39,679 nucleotides of DNA from an uncultured Prevotella sp. (GTDB lineage: Bacteria; Bacteroidota; Bacteroidia; Bacteroidales; Bacteroidaceae). Where the stretch lies: NCBI GenBank assembly GCA_934120735.1, contig CAKOVA010000013.1:1-39679 (forward strand). The letters run 5' to 3'. The position numbers were made by a program, and so were the translations under genes. The notes under the pieces are model-generated. The model worked only from the letters and a program-made list of their open reading frames with translations, had not been told where the DNA came from and searched no databases. Of the stretch, positions 12,356-32,926 are shown in pieces. The first letter of the stretch is position 1. Each line of letters begins with the position of its first letter.

Positions 12356-13522
12356 TTACCTACTGCCCAGCAGATATTGGTCAATAAACTCACGTACGCA
12401 CCCCTCGCCGCCGGCTTTTTGCATGATGATGATGCCCGGAATTTCTTGAATGGGGCGCATCGCATCGGCCGGACAGGCGCAAATTCCAACGGCACTCAGC
12501 AGTTGTTGGCAGTTGACGTCATCGCCGATGTAAGCCACGTCGCACAACGTGATGCCCATCTGGTCGCAAATTTCCTGAGCCGCCTCAAGTTTCCCACCAT
12601 GTCGCTTGCCCTGAACGAGAAAATCGACCTTCAGTTTTTTAGCCCTGTTCTCTACCAGCTTGGTGTTTTCAGAGGTGATGATGCCCACCTTGACACCTTG
12701 CGCCTGCAAGAGTTGTAGCCCCATGCCGTCGCGTGTGTTGAACTTCTTCAGCTCGTCACCGCTTTCCGCATAATACATGCCGCCATCGGTCAGCGTGCCG
12801 TCAACGTCGCACAAGAAGAGCTTTACGGATTTCTTCAGACTGTCCGCCGCACGGTTCAAAACATGCTTTCGCATGAGATGTTCCAGGAATGACCAATCGT
12901 CTGGCTCTTCAATCGCCATGCCCGTGTAAGCTGGCATCTCATAGATTCCGATGTGACCACTTAGCCTGTTGCCCGATGATAGGATGTTCTCCACCTTATT
13001 TATATAGAGCGCGCCGTTCTCCATGAGCGTTCCTTCGAAGTTTTGCCGATGCGGGCGGTGTGTGTAGTCGTAGTTCATGCTGGTGCCATCGGCGTTCCAA
13101 AAGAACTGGTAATTGCGCACACAGGAGAGGATGGAGTCGTATCGGGCGGTGTTGTATAGTGCCAAGGCCTCACTGAAATGCTTCGTTTGCGTCATGGGCG
13201 ACGTGGCTTGCACCAGCATGAAGCAAGCCTCGGGTGCCAGATTGGCGGCATGGATGTACGCCAGCATCACGCTCTCGACAGAGATGGCGTCGCTGGCATT
13301 CTCGACAGAGTGGCGATAAATCTCGGTCTTTTTGTATGAGCGGGAAGCCACTACCCGTTCTATCTCGTCCGAATCGGTGGCCACAATCACCTTGTCCACC
13401 TCGCGGCAGGCCTCCAAAGCCTCGATGCTCCAACACAAAAGGGGCTTTCCGCAAAAGAGCTTGATGTTCTTCTGGGGGATTGACTTGCTGCCATCCAGCA
13501 CAGGAATGAATGCTATGACCAT
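12356..13522 (-). CDS. CMP-sialate synthetase (acylneuraminate cytidylyltransferase) fused to a KdsC-type HAD phosphatase
   Basis: The N-terminal domain (about 1-225) activates a nonulosonic acid with CTP. IPVLDGSKSIPQKNIK (residues 6-21) is the nucleotide-binding loop, with family segments SVESVMLAYI and LVQATSPMTQ after it. The C-terminal domain (about 232-388) is a HAD phosphatase with the catalytic pair DVDGT (Asp239, Asp241), a Thr/Ser in IITSEN, Lys near 311 and GDDVNC (Asp334, Asp335). The fusion would couple 9-phosphate (or 8-phosphate) removal to CMP transfer, as in known Bacteroides and vertebrate CMAS-like arrangements. The sugar (Neu5Ac, KDN, legionaminate or similar) cannot be read from sequence. 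No neuB-like synthase is adjacent. The first loop has LD where most relatives have AR, and Gln where Arg is usual before Lys-Asn. Confidence 0.85.
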   Translation of the reverse strand: MVIAFIPVLDGSKSIPQKNIKLFCGKPLLCWSIEALEACREVDKVIVATDSDEIERVVASRSYKKTEIYRHSVENASDAISVESVMLAYIHAANLAPEACFMLVQATSPMTQTKHFSEALALYNTARYDSILSCVRNYQFFWNADGTSMNYDYTHRPHRQNFEGTLMENGALYINKVENILSSGNRLSGHIGIYEMPAYTGMAIEEPDDWSFLEHLMRKHVLNRAADSLKKSVKLFLCDVDGTLTDGGMYYAESGDELKKFNTRDGMGLQLLQAQGVKVGIITSENTKLVENRAKKLKVDFLVQGKRHGGKLEAAQEICDQMGITLCDVAYIGDDVNCQQLLSAVGICACPADAMRPIQEIPGIIIMQKAGGEGCVREFIDQYLLGSR

Positions 13523-13817
13523 CTTAACTTGATTCTTTTAAAGTTTGTCGCACTGCACGTTTTGATATCCAGAACAGTCCACACAATTCCCTGTTGAGGT
13601 TATCGGCCAACGGAATCTTCATCCTCCGAGGTCTCGATGTGCAGATTTCTGCTTGTAAGCCTTCGTGCTACTTGGCTGTGCTTGCAAATATATAAAATAA
13701 TCACTCATTGACGGAATGAAACGACATGTTTTTTTTGTTGCGTGCGCCAACAATGGGAGTTGAATAGGCAAGAATCAACCTGTTTGAACAAAGAGGATGA
13801 CACATGCGTTTCAATAG
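13523..13817. other. Leader and upstream region of the cytidylyltransferase gene
   Basis: No gene is visible. On the minus strand TATATTTG (13685-13692) could be a -7 element for the cytidylyltransferase gene, giving a long leader of about 155 nt, but no matching -33 box lies 19-21 nt upstream. Nothing else was recognised. Confidence 0.4.
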
Positions 13818-13890
13818 CATTGACTTTGGACGCTAAACTCATTGACTTTGGACGTCAAACTCAATGAGTTTGGACACCAAAGTCAATGAG
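13818..13890. repeat. 22-bp-period array A
   Basis: Three units of exactly 22 bp start at 13818, 13840 and 13862, each opening with CATTGAC or CAATGAG; a seventh-length partial unit (CAATGAG) closes the array at 13890. The outer ends are complementary (CATTGACTTTGG against CCAAAGTCAATG), so the array is also an imperfect palindrome. A second copy is at 30175-30247; I count 62 of 73 identical positions. There is no coding frame and there are no unique spacers. Confidence 0.85.
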
Positions 13891-13941
13891 ATTATAAGGT
13901 ATTCAGCGACAGTGTGTTATGGAAAGTTTGACAGCTCTGCG

Positions 13942-14805
13942 TCATAAGGCATGCTCGGGCTTTACTTCGCCGTTTCTTATTTCGCTGGGTGTGCCGCCAA
14001 GTGTCTCTTTACAGAATGTGGAAAGACGCTGTACGGAGGAGAACTTGAACTGATTGGCTATCTCCTCTAACGTGTCATTGGTGTCGCGTAGGGCTTTGAA
14101 TAGTGCCTCGCCTTTCACCTTGCTCACCCAAGCCTTGGGCGTTTCGCCAAAGCATTGTTTGAAGTGGCGTATGAATGTGGGGCGGCTCATGCACACCTTT
14201 TCTGCCATTTCGTCAATAGAAGGATAGGTGCGCGACATCGCAATGATGGTGTCCTGAAACGTCAAATCCACCCCATAGAGCGGAACCAAAAATGGCACCA
14301 GCTCGTCTTTGGAGTAATAGGCCTGCATGACGGCCGTGAACTCGCGCTGCTTGATCAGCTGGATGTCACAACAGAGCAGTCCGTCTATGACATAGTCGGC
14401 CGTCTGCCGAGCCAGCACTACCACTGGTTTAATCATGTCCAAGGCAAACAACCAGTCGGCACGCTTGGGCGCATTTTTAATCATCTCATCCGTGATGATG
14501 TTATGACAGAACTTGAATTTGCTGTCAATAAAGTAAAGCACCAATGCCAAGCTGTCCTCCATAAAGCGAATGGAGTTGTCTACACCGGCTGGCATGGGAA
14601 ACATCTGGTTGGCATGGACGGTGAAACCGGGAAACCGTTTGCCTTCCACATGCAAGGCACCTTCCAGCATGAAGATCATGGCCGTACGCGAGGCAGCGGT
14701 GTGTGCCACCACGCCTTTCTTTTCCCTTATAACCCTGAAGCCTACAGGGGAGTTACCTTGGTAATGCTCGCACATGAGGTGCTTGTTAAGATAGTACACT
14801 TGCAT
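13942..14805 (-). CDS. AraC family transcriptional regulator
   Basis: This 287-residue DNA-binding regulator has an N-terminal cupin-like sensing domain (about 20-120, with an AMIFMLEGALHVEGKRF strand pair). The C-terminal part carries two helix-turn-helix motifs (about 195-280). The first is in SIDEMAEKVCMSRPTFIRHF and the second in TLEEIANQFKFSSVQRLSTF, followed by the usual GGTPSEIR tail. It is divergent from the small-peptide/lipoprotein pair across a 480-bp region containing a strong dyad. Regulation of that pair, of itself, or of both is plausible (inference). The inducer is unknown. The start at 14805 follows a TATTTTTG -7 candidate by about 30 nt. Confidence 0.88.
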   Translation of the reverse strand: MQVYYLNKHLMCEHYQGNSPVGFRVIREKKGVVAHTAASRTAMIFMLEGALHVEGKRFPGFTVHANQMFPMPAGVDNSIRFMEDSLALVLYFIDSKFKFCHNIITDEMIKNAPKRADWLFALDMIKPVVVLARQTADYVIDGLLCCDIQLIKQREFTAVMQAYYSKDELVPFLVPLYGVDLTFQDTIIAMSRTYPSIDEMAEKVCMSRPTFIRHFKQCFGETPKAWVSKVKGEALFKALRDTNDTLEEIANQFKFSSVQRLSTFCKETLGGTPSEIRNGEVKPEHAL

Positions 14806-14834
14806 AGGATGCTTGTAAAAATAAGATTATTATG

Positions 14835-14842
14835 CAAAAATA
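14835..14842 (-). promoter_or_regulatory. Candidate -7 element of the AraC-type gene
   Basis: TATTTTTG on the minus strand fits TAnnTTTG. No good TTTG lies 19-21 nt upstream, which would suit a promoter that depends on an activator. The leader would be about 23 nt. Confidence 0.4.
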
Positions 14843-14935
14843 GTGCAAGCCGAAAACAAAGAAAGTTTACTTGCTTTGTTGAGGCGATGCCTATTTTATG
14901 CAAATATACACGATAAATTAATATGTGCTTCAAGT

Positions 14936-21020: not shown

Positions 21021-21108
21021 TTCAATATGATGCTAATTGGACGGTTAAAGCATGCATATTGGGTGGTTAAGTCATGCATATTGGAGGGCAAAAGCATGGT
21101 GATTGCCC
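21021..21108 (+). repeat. 22-bp-period array C
   Basis: Four degenerate units of 22 bp start at 21021, 21043, 21065 and 21087. Units 2 and 3 share GGTTAA and CATGCATATTGG; unit 4 reads GGCAAAAGCATG. In the phase starting at 21039 a unit matches array A (13828-13849) at 14 of 22 positions without gaps, including GGACG, CAT and the final TT. There are no spacers and no coding frame. Confidence 0.7.
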
Positions 21109-29092: not shown

Positions 29093-29552
29093 AATCAGGC
29101 AACTTCTTGACCGCTACTATGACGGGCAGACCAGCGAGCGCGAGGAACAAGTGCTGAAAGACTATTTCCTTCAGGATGACGTTCCGACTCAGTGGGCGAC
29201 CGACCAACAGCTGTTCCGGCAGTTGTATGGTGCGAATATGCCGGCCATTGACGGTCTGGAGCAGCGGTTGTCGCGGCAGATTGACAGTTGGAACCGCGTG
29301 GAGAAGACGGCCAATCGGCGTACCCGCACCATCGGTCTGCGGTGGATAGCCGGCATTGCGGCCTCCTTGTTGTTGCTGTTTGCCATCGGTCTTCTGGTCG
29401 ACAGGCAGCAAAAGCAAGAGCAATATGCCGTGCAGCAAGATACATTCGACGACCCGAGGGATGCGTATGCCGAAACACAGAAGGCCTTGATGATGTTTTC
29501 CAAGTCGATTAACAAAGGTTTAAATAAAGTAGAAAATGTTACACAAGAGTAA
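29079..29552 (+). CDS. Single-pass membrane protein, probable anti-sigma factor
   Basis: The protein has 157 residues. The cytosolic N-terminal part (1-88) is rich in charged residues (DKIRQLLDRYYDGQTSEREE), as in zinc-free anti-sigma domains; the opening resembles a degenerate anti-sigma helix bundle. One membrane span lies at about 89-107 (IAGIAASLLLLFAIGLLV), followed by a short periplasmic tail. It overlaps the sigma gene by 14 bp and the next gene by 17 bp. No enzyme motif is visible. The anti-sigma role is inferred from topology and gene order. Confidence 0.7.
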   Translation: MDTDKIRQLLDRYYDGQTSEREEQVLKDYFLQDDVPTQWATDQQLFRQLYGANMPAIDGLEQRLSRQIDSWNRVEKTANRRTRTIGLRWIAGIAASLLLLFAIGLLVDRQQKQEQYAVQQDTFDDPRDAYAETQKALMMFSKSINKGLNKVENVTQE

Positions 29553-30018
29553 TTTGACCGCATGGCTGAGAACATTGTCCCTGGCCATTTGCCTTGTATG
29601 GGGCTGTGTGTCGCTGTCGGCGCAGGACCGTTTGTTCAAGCAGTTTGAGAACACCAAGGGCGTGTCTACCGTGTACATCTCGCCCGCGATGTTTAAGCTG
29701 ATGCCCAAACTCGACGTGGGTGACAAGGATTTGGCCAAGCTGGCCTCCCGGCTGACGCGCCTGCAAATCCTGCAATGCGAACGCCCATCGCTGATTCCTT
29801 CTATCAAGAAGCAAGCGCAGGCATACTATGACAACAACCGCTATGAAGTGATTATGCGGGTGAAAGACGACGACGAGCGTACCACCATCTACCAGAAAGT
29901 GGTTGGAAAGGGCAACAATGAGTTTGTTCTTCTTAATGAAGAGAAAGACGAGCTGTCACTCATCCACCTCATTGGGAACATCACTTTGGAGGACATCAAA
30001 GGCCTCTACGACCGATAG
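29536..30018 (+). CDS. DUF4252 family exported protein (second of two)
   Basis: The protein has 160 residues with a signal peptide ending near LSAQ (residue 30). It has the DUF4252 pattern with GVSTVYISPAMFKLMPKLDV, a middle IYQKVVGKGNNEFVLLNEEK and the ending LIHLIGNITLEDIKGLY. It is related to, but clearly diverged from, the product of 28066-28545. It overlaps the anti-sigma-like gene by 17 bp, so it is translated from the same message. The cassette closes with a strong terminator. The function is unknown. Confidence 0.82.
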   Translation: MLHKSNLTAWLRTLSLAICLVWGCVSLSAQDRLFKQFENTKGVSTVYISPAMFKLMPKLDVGDKDLAKLASRLTRLQILQCERPSLIPSIKKQAQAYYDNNRYEVIMRVKDDDERTTIYQKVVGKGNNEFVLLNEEKDELSLIHLIGNITLEDIKGLYDR

Positions 30019-30036: not shown

Positions 30037-30077
30037 AAAAGAAGGCTGGTTTGAATGGACAAACCAGCCTTCTTTTT
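30037..30077 (+). terminator. Terminator of the sigma / DUF4252 operon
   Basis: AAAAGAAGGCTGGTTTG pairs perfectly with CAAACCAGCCTTCTTTT around a 6-nt loop and runs into a T5 tract, 18 nt after the last stop codon. Confidence 0.9.
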
Positions 30078-30174
30078 GCGATGGAGGATGCGCATGGATG
30101 AGATGGAGGGTTGCGCATGGACTCATAGCTTGACGTATAGTCGTAACTTGTTGTCATCTAACGCCTTGCAATTG

Positions 30175-30247
30175 CATTGACTTTGGACGCCAAACCCATT
30201 GACATTGGCTGCCAAACCCATTGAGTTTGACGACCAAAGTCAATGAG
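30175..30247. repeat. 22-bp-period array B
   Basis: Units of 22 bp start at 30175, 30197 and 30219, with the partial CAATGAG at 30241-30247: the same layout, orientation and total length (73 bp) as array A at 13818. The outer 12-mers are again complementary. Most differences from array A fall in the middle units, while the terminal segments are identical. Confidence 0.85.
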
Positions 30248-30399
30248 TTTGAAAACCGACTAACCGTTCTTTGGCTAAGAATCCTTTTCTCATGAAAAAT
30301 GTTGTTTTTGGTTATTACATTTGGTTTTGTCGTAATGATAGCACTTTCAAGTTAAACCCAACAACGAAAATGATGCAAAAACAGAAATAAAGGCGTATT

Positions 30400-30589: not shown

Positions 30590-32926
30590 ATGAACGTAAT
30601 TACGAAAACAGTTCAATTGCCTGATGGCAGAACCATCAGCATTGAAACCGGGAAAGTTGCAAAACAGGCCGATGGCTCAGCGGTAGTTCGCTTGGGTAAC
30701 ACGGTGCTCCTCGCAACTGTTTGTGCAGCAAAGGATGCAGTTCCCGGAACAGATTTTATGCCTTTGCAAGTTGATTATCGCGAGCAGTACAGTGCCGCAG
30801 GCCGTTTTCCAGGTGGATTCACCAAGCGCGAAGGCAAGCCTAGTGATAATGAAATCTTAACTTCTCGATTGGTGGATCGTGCCCTTCGTCCACTTTTCCC
30901 GTCCAATTATCACGCCGAAGTATATGTGCAAATCATGCTTCTTTCTGCCGATGGCGTAGATCAGCCCGATGCTTTAGCTGGGTTGGCAGCATCAGCAGCC
31001 ATGGCATGTTCAGATATTCCTTTCGATTTCTATATCAGTGAGGTTCGTGTGGCACGCATCAATGGCGAGTATGTCATCAACCCAACCACCGAACAGATGA
31101 AACAAGCCGACATGGACTTGATGGTAGGTGCCACCAAGGACAACATCATGATGGTGGAAGGCGAAATGAAAGAAGTGTCTGAGCTCGACCTGATTAACGC
31201 TTTGAAGGCTGCACACGAGGCCATCAAGCCTATGTGTACCGTTCAAGATGAGTTGAACAAGGAGCTGGGTAAGGATGTGAAGCGCGAGTATGATCACGAG
31301 GTGAACGATGAAGACTTGCGTGAAAAGATGAACAACGAGCTGTACCAGCCCGTGTATGACATCACCAAACAGGCTCTTCCTAAGCAAGAACGTCACGACG
31401 CTTTCGACAAAGTACTCACTGATTTCTTGGAAGAATACGATGCTGCTCACGCTGCCGATCTGACCGAAGAGGAACTGGAGGAGAAGCATGCCGAGGCTAC
31501 ACGCTACTATGATGACGTGTTGAAGAATGCCATGCGTCGTTGTGTTTTGGATGAAGGTAAGCGTTTGGACGGTCGTAAGACCGATGAGATTCGTCCTATC
31601 TGGTGCGAGGTTAGCCCGCTGCCAATGCCTCACGGAAGTGCAATCTTTACGCGTGGTGAGACGCAGTCGTTGTCAACTTGTACGTTAGGAACCAAACTTG
31701 ACGAGAAAATGGTAGACGATGTCTTGGACAAGAGCTATCAACGTTTCCTGTTGCATTACAACTTCCCCCCATTCTCTACAGGTGAAGCCAAGGCTCAACG
31801 TGGCGTTGGTCGCCGCGAAATAGGGCATGGACACTTGGCATGGCGAGGCTTAAAGGGTCAATTACCTGATGACTTCCCCTACACAGTGCGCTTGGTGAGC
31901 CAGATATTGGAAAGCAACGGCTCGTCTTCCATGGCCACTGTTTGTGCCGGTACGCTGGCTTTGATGGATGCAGGTGTACCTATGAAGAAGCCTGTTAGCG
32001 GCATTGCCATGGGCTTGATCAAGAACCCAGGCGAAGATAAATATGCCGTTTTGAGCGATATCCTTGGTGATGAGGATCATTTGGGCGACATGGATTTCAA
32101 GACAACAGGTACGCGCGACGGATTGACCGCTACGCAGATGGACATCAAGTGCGATGGCTTGAGCTTTGAAATCTTGGAGAAAGCGTTGTTGCAAGCAAAG
32201 GCAGGGCGCGAACATATCTTGGACAAAATGCTCGAAACGATAGCAGAACCTCGTCCAGAGATGAAGCCTCAGGTGCCACGCATCGAAGCGTTTGAGATAC
32301 CGAAAGAGTTTATTGGAGCCGTTATCGGGCCTGGTGGAAAGATTATCCAGCAGATGCAGGAAGATACAGGAGCTACCATTACGATTGATGAGGTTGACAA
32401 TGTGGGTAAAATACAAGTGAGTGCGCCCAACAAAGAGTCAATTGATGCGGCCATTAACAAAATCAAATCCATCGTTGCCATCCCTGAAGTAGGCGAGATA
32501 TACGAAGGAACGGTACGCTCTATCATGCCATACGGCTGCTTTGTAGAGATACTTCCGGGCAAAGATGGCTTATTGCATATCTCTGAAATAGATTGGAAAC
32601 GCCTTGAAACGGTAGAGGATGCCGGCATTCATGAGGGTGACAAGATCAGGGTGAAGTTGTTGGAAATCGATCCAAAGACTGGCAAATACAAGCTCTCTCG
32701 CCGTGTGTTGTTAGAAAAACCCGAAGGCTATGTAGAGCGCGAACGTCGTCCTCGCCGCGAGAATGGTGGTGAGCGTCGCCCACGTCGTGATGACAATCGT
32801 GAGGGACATCGTCATTATGAGAATGGTGATCGTCAACCTCGTCGCTTTGAACATCGCAACGGAGGCTCTGATCGTGCTTACAACAACGAGTCCAACGAGT
32901 TTAACGATACGTTTGATGCAGAGTAA
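30590..32926 (+). CDS. pnp: Polyribonucleotide nucleotidyltransferase (PNPase)
   Basis: This is the phosphorolytic 3'-5' exoribonuclease of mRNA decay. It has 778 residues. Two RNase PH-like domains span about 10-230 and 325-545; the second has [20 protein letters not shown], which holds the phosphate and RNA contacts. A KH domain starts near 563 ([19 protein letters not shown], with the GxxG loop) and an S1 domain lies at about 635-705 ([20 protein letters not shown]). The C-terminal tail of about 60 residues (718-778) is rich in Arg, Gly, Asn and Asp ([17 protein letters not shown]), an RGG-like extension that may add RNA or partner binding. The promoter and structured leader are described separately. 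The identification is secure. Confidence 0.96.

Follow-up and report, generated by a model that had tools for sequence, protein, structure and literature searches.

The window, by which we mean the whole 39,679-nucleotide stretch of Prevotella DNA analyzed here, contains two tandem arrays, A and B, in separate gaps between genes. The preliminary description had reported two intergenic 73-bp blocks with a period of 22 bp at 13818 and 30175, identical at 62 of 73 positions and bearing complementary outer 12-mers, all of which was recovered; Tandem Repeats Finder likewise reported both blocks. These blocks proved to be clipped, in that the outer sites reach past the coordinates first given: A and B each consist of four 17-bp quasi-palindromic sites (CAAASTCAWTGASTTTG) separated by variable 5-bp spacers at a strict 22-bp step, the full element measuring 83 bp. 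The arrays, their sites, and their neighbors are as follows.

12356..13522, minus strand: cytidylyltransferase/HAD gene (Pfam), its start about 290 bp from array A, which is upstream
13812..13894, no strand: array A, four 17-bp sites with 5-bp spacers
13812..13828, no strand: A site 1, 14/17 match to CAAASTCAWTGASTTTG
13834..13850, no strand: A site 2, 16/17 match to CAAASTCAWTGASTTTG
13856..13872, no strand: A site 3, 17/17 match to CAAASTCAWTGASTTTG
13878..13894, no strand: A site 4, 15/17 match to CAAASTCAWTGASTTTG
13942..14805, minus strand: AraC-family regulator gene (Pfam HTH_AraC, HTH_18), its 3' end facing array A
29536..30018, plus strand: DUF4252 gene (Pfam), upstream of array B
30169..30251, no strand: array B, four 17-bp sites with 5-bp spacers
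30169..30185, no strand: B site 1, 14/17 match to CAAASTCAWTGASTTTG
30191..30207, no strand: B site 2, 15/17 match to CAAASTCAWTGASTTTG
30213..30229, no strand: B site 3, 16/17 match to CAAASTCAWTGASTTTG
30235..30251, no strand: B site 4, 17/17 match to CAAASTCAWTGASTTTG
30252..30272, no strand: junction at which the window lacks a 2.3-kb stretch that is present after array B in the related genomes G001, G071, and G216
30590..32926, plus strand: pnp, polynucleotide phosphorylase (Pfam RNase_PH, KH_1, S1, PNPase), downstream of array B

The observations of the preliminary description were confirmed in part. Its three exact units per block did not hold, as units 2 and 3 are 91% and 77% identical to unit 1 in A and 86% and 68% identical in B. 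As for its view that the differences cluster in the middle, all 11 fall at block positions 17-58, 6 of them in the spacer; conservation across the family recurs every 22 bp and is not limited to the ends.

Array A has orthologues in G071, in G216, and, contracted to one core, in G001; array B has orthologues in all three. In each of these genomes the 2.3-kb stretch lies between array B and pnp and carries a gene that we take, from its motif, to be alpha-galactosidase-like; the break in the window falls about 12 bp from the 73-bp block. A perfect 17-bp hairpin followed by a T run, likely an ordinary terminator, was observed at 30037-30076, after the DUF4252 gene and just upstream of array B. 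A separate multicopy repeat was also observed at about 14830-14908, upstream of the AraC gene, with many matches in G001, G071, and G216, five in G013, and copies often about 66-70 bp apart.

Both arrays are members of an intergenic repeat family of the Hoylesella buccalis group, a lineage of mouth bacteria. In the nearest relative, G001, the pattern CATTGASTTTGGNNNCCAAA with at most 2 mismatches gave 122 forward and 120 reverse matches, whereas its reversed control under the same tolerance gave 0 forward and 0 reverse, so that the unit pattern in this genome is not due to chance. A 21-letter unit pattern (at most 1 mismatch) matched 27 of 398 genomes in a sample of the GTDB genus, with more than 5 matches only in G001, G071, and G216. 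The complete genome G425, labelled as the same species as G001, held 129 units under a looser pattern with one mismatch, and 0 units were found in G030 and G479, which rank next by pnp identity (93%, among 165 genomes). Named genomes scanned with the exact pattern yielded ten stretches: four in H. buccalis ATCC 35310, four in Prevotella sp. BV3P1, one in MAG SUG2085, and one in a rumen Prevotellaceae genome. In the rumen Prevotellaceae genome RUG624 (L046 7188-7240), a related array was seen with TTGGTCACCAAA cores 22 bp apart. In total, 158 arrays were collected (56 from G001, 53 from G071, 47 from G216, and the 2 of the window) by way of the listed matches with at most 1 mismatch and a few BLAST matches, a route that misses degenerate arrays and a set that leaves out the G425 arrays and at least 7 listed G216 places. 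Far from occurring only at the two loci of the window, the units thus occupy 47 to 56 loci per genome in three genomes, and they are not the ends of a known insertion sequence (IS), though an IS inserts in or beside them.

Exactly four sites were counted in 103 of 156 arrays and five in 33 (17-mers at 22-bp steps, a site being counted at 10 or more of 17 letters, a threshold that a random position reaches with 1.3%). The site frame, CAAA-N9-TTTG, is 17 bp long and dyad-symmetric, and the 5-bp spacers between sites are hypervariable; information content is 0.9 to 1.8 bits per letter in CAWTG and TTT/AAA and about 0.1 bit in the central NNN. With one array taken per locus and ORFs called by a simple length rule, 34 arrays fell in tandem, 19 in convergent, and 10 in divergent gaps, and 4 were inside ORFs. 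Divergent gaps were weakly underrepresented (10/63 arrays versus 15/46 neighboring gaps, p 0.06), and no preference for convergent gaps was detected in the buccalis group (19/63 versus 11/46 neighboring gaps, p 0.52). For the repeat of G109 (possibly P. intermedia group), convergent gaps held 8 of 15 elements versus 16 of 86 gaps (p 0.007), the count of 15 being exclusive of 7 further elements inside called short ORFs. The earlier suggestion of a replication-linked site was not borne out: the 36 exact-match arrays of the complete G425 genome showed no departure from evenness around the genome (Rayleigh p ~0.48), in a test made independently of origin and terminus positions. Synteny breaks numbered 15 on 10 locus sides within 35 bp of array edges (2.05 per kb) and amounted to 0.12 and 0.06 per kb further out (217 flanks), an enrichment that is a lead only, because conserved arrays also serve as alignment anchors.

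Flank comparison grouped the arrays into 68 loci, of which 52 are common to at least two genomes of these sister species; the 16 seen in one genome only are an upper limit, since degenerate or uncollected arrays are missed. Nine arrays with common flanks form a single component, entered as one locus among the 68 and excluded when rates and breaks were counted. The element of which arrays A and B are copies is dispersed between genes and has been inherited mostly by vertical descent. Dispersal, intergenic placement, defined size, and inverted symmetry would also suit a mobile element of MITE-like or minisatellite type that a transposase had moved in trans and that is now largely fixed, for which BrickBuilt of Porphyromonas gingivalis offers a model: 23-nt tandem bricks in 19 copies, described with a leader and a tail, terminal inverted repeats, and 1 to 22.8 repeats per element, no copy being reported there as bisected by a full transposon (PMC4596501). 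The likeness lies in intergenic tandem repeats of 22-23 nt within the same bacterial order; 22-, 23-, and 41-nt tandem direct repeats are mentioned for P. gingivalis W83, those of 22 nt without sequence or place in that account (PMC4596501). In contrast, the buccalis arrays have no leader or tail, and their end profiles revealed nothing clearly conserved beyond the outer sites; a search of 56 G001 arrays for target-site duplications (lengths 3-9, offsets 0-29) found no excess over shuffled partners. Nor do they have terminal repeats matching those of the array-adjoining IS, the only IS compared, which has its own TGTC..GACA ends, different from the array ends, and whose IS-free orthologue also has an array. 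With so many loci shared between species and the fixed copies strongly constrained, we consider a mobile element of this kind unlikely.

That constraint was measured on orthologous arrays of equal unit number, compared in pairs among three genomes that are not independent: TT/AA letters had changed at 11 of 1131 positions (1%), box letters at 79 of 1835, and the central NNN spacer at 184 of 846 (22%), set against 2285 of 17966 (12.7%) in intergenic and 807 of 11312 in coding flanks. Dropping the best-matching units, as a safeguard against search bias, made little difference (10/675 TT/AA, 39/760 box, and 113/505 NNN, with Fisher p versus flank of 2e-26, 1e-11, and 4e-9, respectively). The outermost letters of the site, the G of TTTG and the C of CAAA, changed at 32/282 (11%) and 35/282 (12%), near the flank rate, so that the inner 15 letters make up the constrained core of the site. 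Gene conversion could in part account for the low TT/AA change, but conversion should also equalize the spacers. Slippage with a 22-bp preference, producing a neutral minisatellite, would fit the unequal unit number of 28 of 112 orthologue pairs, the recent unit copies visible in some arrays (e.g., L145, L147), and the occurrence of period 22 with many unrelated sequences, yet it would be expected neither to yield rates so nonuniform inside one 22-bp unit nor the sharp mode at four sites, and it too is unlikely.

The element that adjoins the arrays is 1.6 kb long, with an rve-type transposase, and is presumably of the IS3 family, judging from that transposase and a 3-bp repeat. Comparison of a G425 insertion with the IS-free G001 orthologue revealed a clean insertion with CTT on both sides, the break lying inside the last TTTG of a site. 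At all 16 readable left ends of this IS (12 contig-terminal copies and one relic in G216, two full copies in G425, and one relic in G071), array boxes were in 22-bp phase and the left end faced the array, with a register of -9/-31/-53 in 13 and one base off in 3. Six weak IS matches and the contig-terminal full copy G216:C28, which have no readable left flank, were not scored; the 18 right-end flanks stood outside the scoring, and two of these (L199, L280) visibly continue an array. In seven cases (L200, L210, L303, L304, L305, L309, and L310) no good box lay nearest the IS (3 or fewer of 5 letters) but phase was kept, which suggests that the array fixes the point of insertion from some way off; the nearest box position of L200 is taken up by an older IS end, and L310, with two good boxes in the nearest four positions, is the weakest case. 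Such phase and polarity could mean that the arrays are a selfish landing pad, persisting only because the IS and its relatives insert there harmlessly. However, the arrays are constrained across G001, G071, and G216, whereas no match longer than about 100 bp turned up when G001 and G071 were searched for the IS, and a benefit to the IS does not alone conserve target letters in the host; we regard this explanation as quite improbable.

Among 203 units from G001 and the window, no significant positive covariation was found across the core or box dyad. Complementary pairs at the S positions were fewer than expected (45/203 versus 80.9, z -5.3), as were those of the 12/16 pair (z -2.2); this deficit may in part stem from the recurrence of one S letter along an array, probably by tandem duplication, and is therefore used only against a conserved stem. 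Of the 36 pairs of the whole-element dyad, one reached p 0.03 (31 arrays), a result counted against the binding-site model, as are the unequal unit numbers of orthologues, the contraction of the G001 copy of A to one core, the high rate of change of the outermost G and C, and the weak gene context. Although a TTTG-N5-CAAA stem can be drawn for each unit and the elements are mostly intergenic, an RNA-level hairpin acting as a terminator or mRNA stabilizer is very improbable, given that the dyad changes are not compensatory, that no Rfam family matched in the window at gathering score, and that the separate hairpin and T run at 30037-30076 probably already provide a terminator upstream of array B.

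The constraint on TT/AA, together with the absence of compensatory pairing and of target duplication, favors binding sites for a dimeric protein over an RNA hairpin, a MITE, or a neutral minisatellite, and constrained palindromic sites, free spacers, and a fixed step of two turns are most simply accounted for by dimers lined up along one face of the DNA. A protein array on one helical face had been part of the preliminary interpretation, which is supported to that extent and not as a whole: the dyad sites, the 22-bp step, the constraint between orthologues, and the in-phase IS all point to it as the favored reading. On this comparative sequence evidence, we put at roughly 0.58 the probability that the element is a mostly vertically inherited, putative multi-site protein block, with four dimers on 22-bp sites, that also serves as an IS landing site. 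A single dedicated DNA-binding protein would occupy each site as a dimer. With 22 bp making two helical turns, about four such dimers could stack on one DNA face and form a small nucleoprotein block in the gap between transcription units, and the transposase would land on the array or on the protein bound there. The class may be Prevotella-wide, with the N9 specific to each clade. Our best guess is that the role of such a block would be REP/BIME-like, in DNA topology or in transcription insulation at gene boundaries.

As dispersed, mostly intergenic palindromes attracting an IS (of presumed IS3 family), the buccalis arrays do recall REP/BIME. The latter are described as palindromic units dispersed between genes in small arrays, which some IS3-family elements target and which have been linked to strain-specific blocks of genes (PMC1525189). 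The differences are several. The GTAG/CGTC tag is not conserved in the buccalis unit, end, or site profiles, and the buccalis arrays have a fixed 22-bp lattice, with pairing not kept by covariation. The Y1 (RAYT) transposase (PF01797) was found in none of the 4 array-bearing genomes by a search that did find it in G030 and in 5 of 14 control genomes, though not in G479. Moreover, the IS lies at the buccalis array edge in register, whereas REP-targeting IS are described as inserting into the REP sequence (PMC1525189). A further parallel is the TAACTGA direct repeats of Beggiatoaceae and some Bacteroidetes, short repeats in numerous intergenic sets for which a binding-site function has been proposed; these differ in having a 7-nt motif, a proposed post-transcriptional role, and, in that account, a place mostly just upstream of start codons (PMC4679880).

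Two TTTGGNNNCCAAA cores 22 bp apart (two mismatches) matched in 38 of 398 family genomes, many with other linkers, by a pattern whose backward-read control is no null in other genomes, giving up to 101 matches in G109. CAAA-N9-TTTG sites at step 22 with another N9 formed 53 runs in 11 other genomes, 36 of them with exactly four sites, and none occurred at steps of 19, 20, 21, 23, 24, or 25 in the same 11 genomes; 25 of the 53 runs come from G109, and part of the regions had been chosen because the two-core pattern matched there. Arbitrary placement gave a similar picture, with a period-22 array in 13 of 19 Prevotella stretches of 20 kb (one arbitrary coordinate in each of 20 genomes with few contigs, G425 being dropped). 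Six of the 19 (G171, G157, G373, G409, G086, and G443) were previously known lattice carriers by the two-core pattern, and such arrays were present in 9 of the 13 stretches with no prior lattice match. Across the 19 stretches, tandem arrays had a period of 22 more often than any other (21 of 69), and intergenic self-similarity stood out at lag 22 in 17 cases, at lag 21 in one, and at lag 23 in none, the other prominent lags being 41 (9) and 44 (7). None of four E. coli K-12 stretches (200 kb) held a period-22 array, a weak period control because tandem arrays of any period are few there (2 in 200 kb); the neighboring lags in Prevotella are the better control. Dyad symmetry was significant in 6 of 21 period-22 arrays from the arbitrary stretches and in 19 of 50 overall (other Prevotella), and with many such arrays having no clear dyad, the 22-bp step may be more general than the CAAA-N9-TTTG frame. 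Searches of open-licence literature returned no title or abstract opening describing a 22-bp lattice in Prevotella.

From these data we tentatively consider, as possible though not probable, a general Prevotella docking device: four palindromic sites on a strict 22-bp lattice, differing between clades in site sequence but not in step or number, which would be recognized both by a rapidly evolving family of proteins and by a transposase measuring its insertion point from the array in 22-bp steps. If one protein family does underlie a constant step with interchangeable sequences, Prevotella would have chromosome-wide multi-site nucleoprotein blocks that are so far unnamed; many intergenic repeats would be explained at once, and an insertion sequence would have its target rule.

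A published repeat close to these arrays is PINSR of the P. intermedia group, described as a clade-restricted, 188-bp intergenic repeat with 177 and 184 copies in two strains, about three quarters of the locations being common to both, with no terminal inverted repeats and with some suggested role in rearrangements (PMC4755523). In G109, four sites occur in largely fixed order inside a conserved repeat of about 200 bp that often overlaps short ORFs. This repeat resembles PINSR in length and short-ORF overlap and has exactly four CAAA-N9-TTTG sites at 22-bp steps; the two would match by length and ORF overlap, not by consensus, and the 25 G109 copies in 200 kb extrapolate to more copies than published. 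PINSR may contain a period-22 array, though the passages on the repeat in its published account mention no 22-bp structure (PMC4755523). The buccalis element differs from it in having only the 83-bp four-site core, no conserved flank, and a different N9.

Several further short-period arrays were observed. A third period-22 array of the window, of another family with CATGCAWATTGGNNGGTTAAAG-like units, was reported by Tandem Repeats Finder at 21036-21098; period-22 arrays lie at the corresponding place in G001, G071, and G216, and G001 has further matches. G216 has another 22-bp array, of unit TATACTTTAGTGGCCCACTACT, in a stretch not aligning to the window (L164 18352-18406). The arrays of L373 (G152) have a period of 21, not 22, with palindromic CGTAACATAGTATGTTATGAA units. 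Finally, L377 (G147) has intergenic arrays of periods 41, 44, and 22, the first of which recalls the 41-nt repeats of P. gingivalis MITE464/PgRS.
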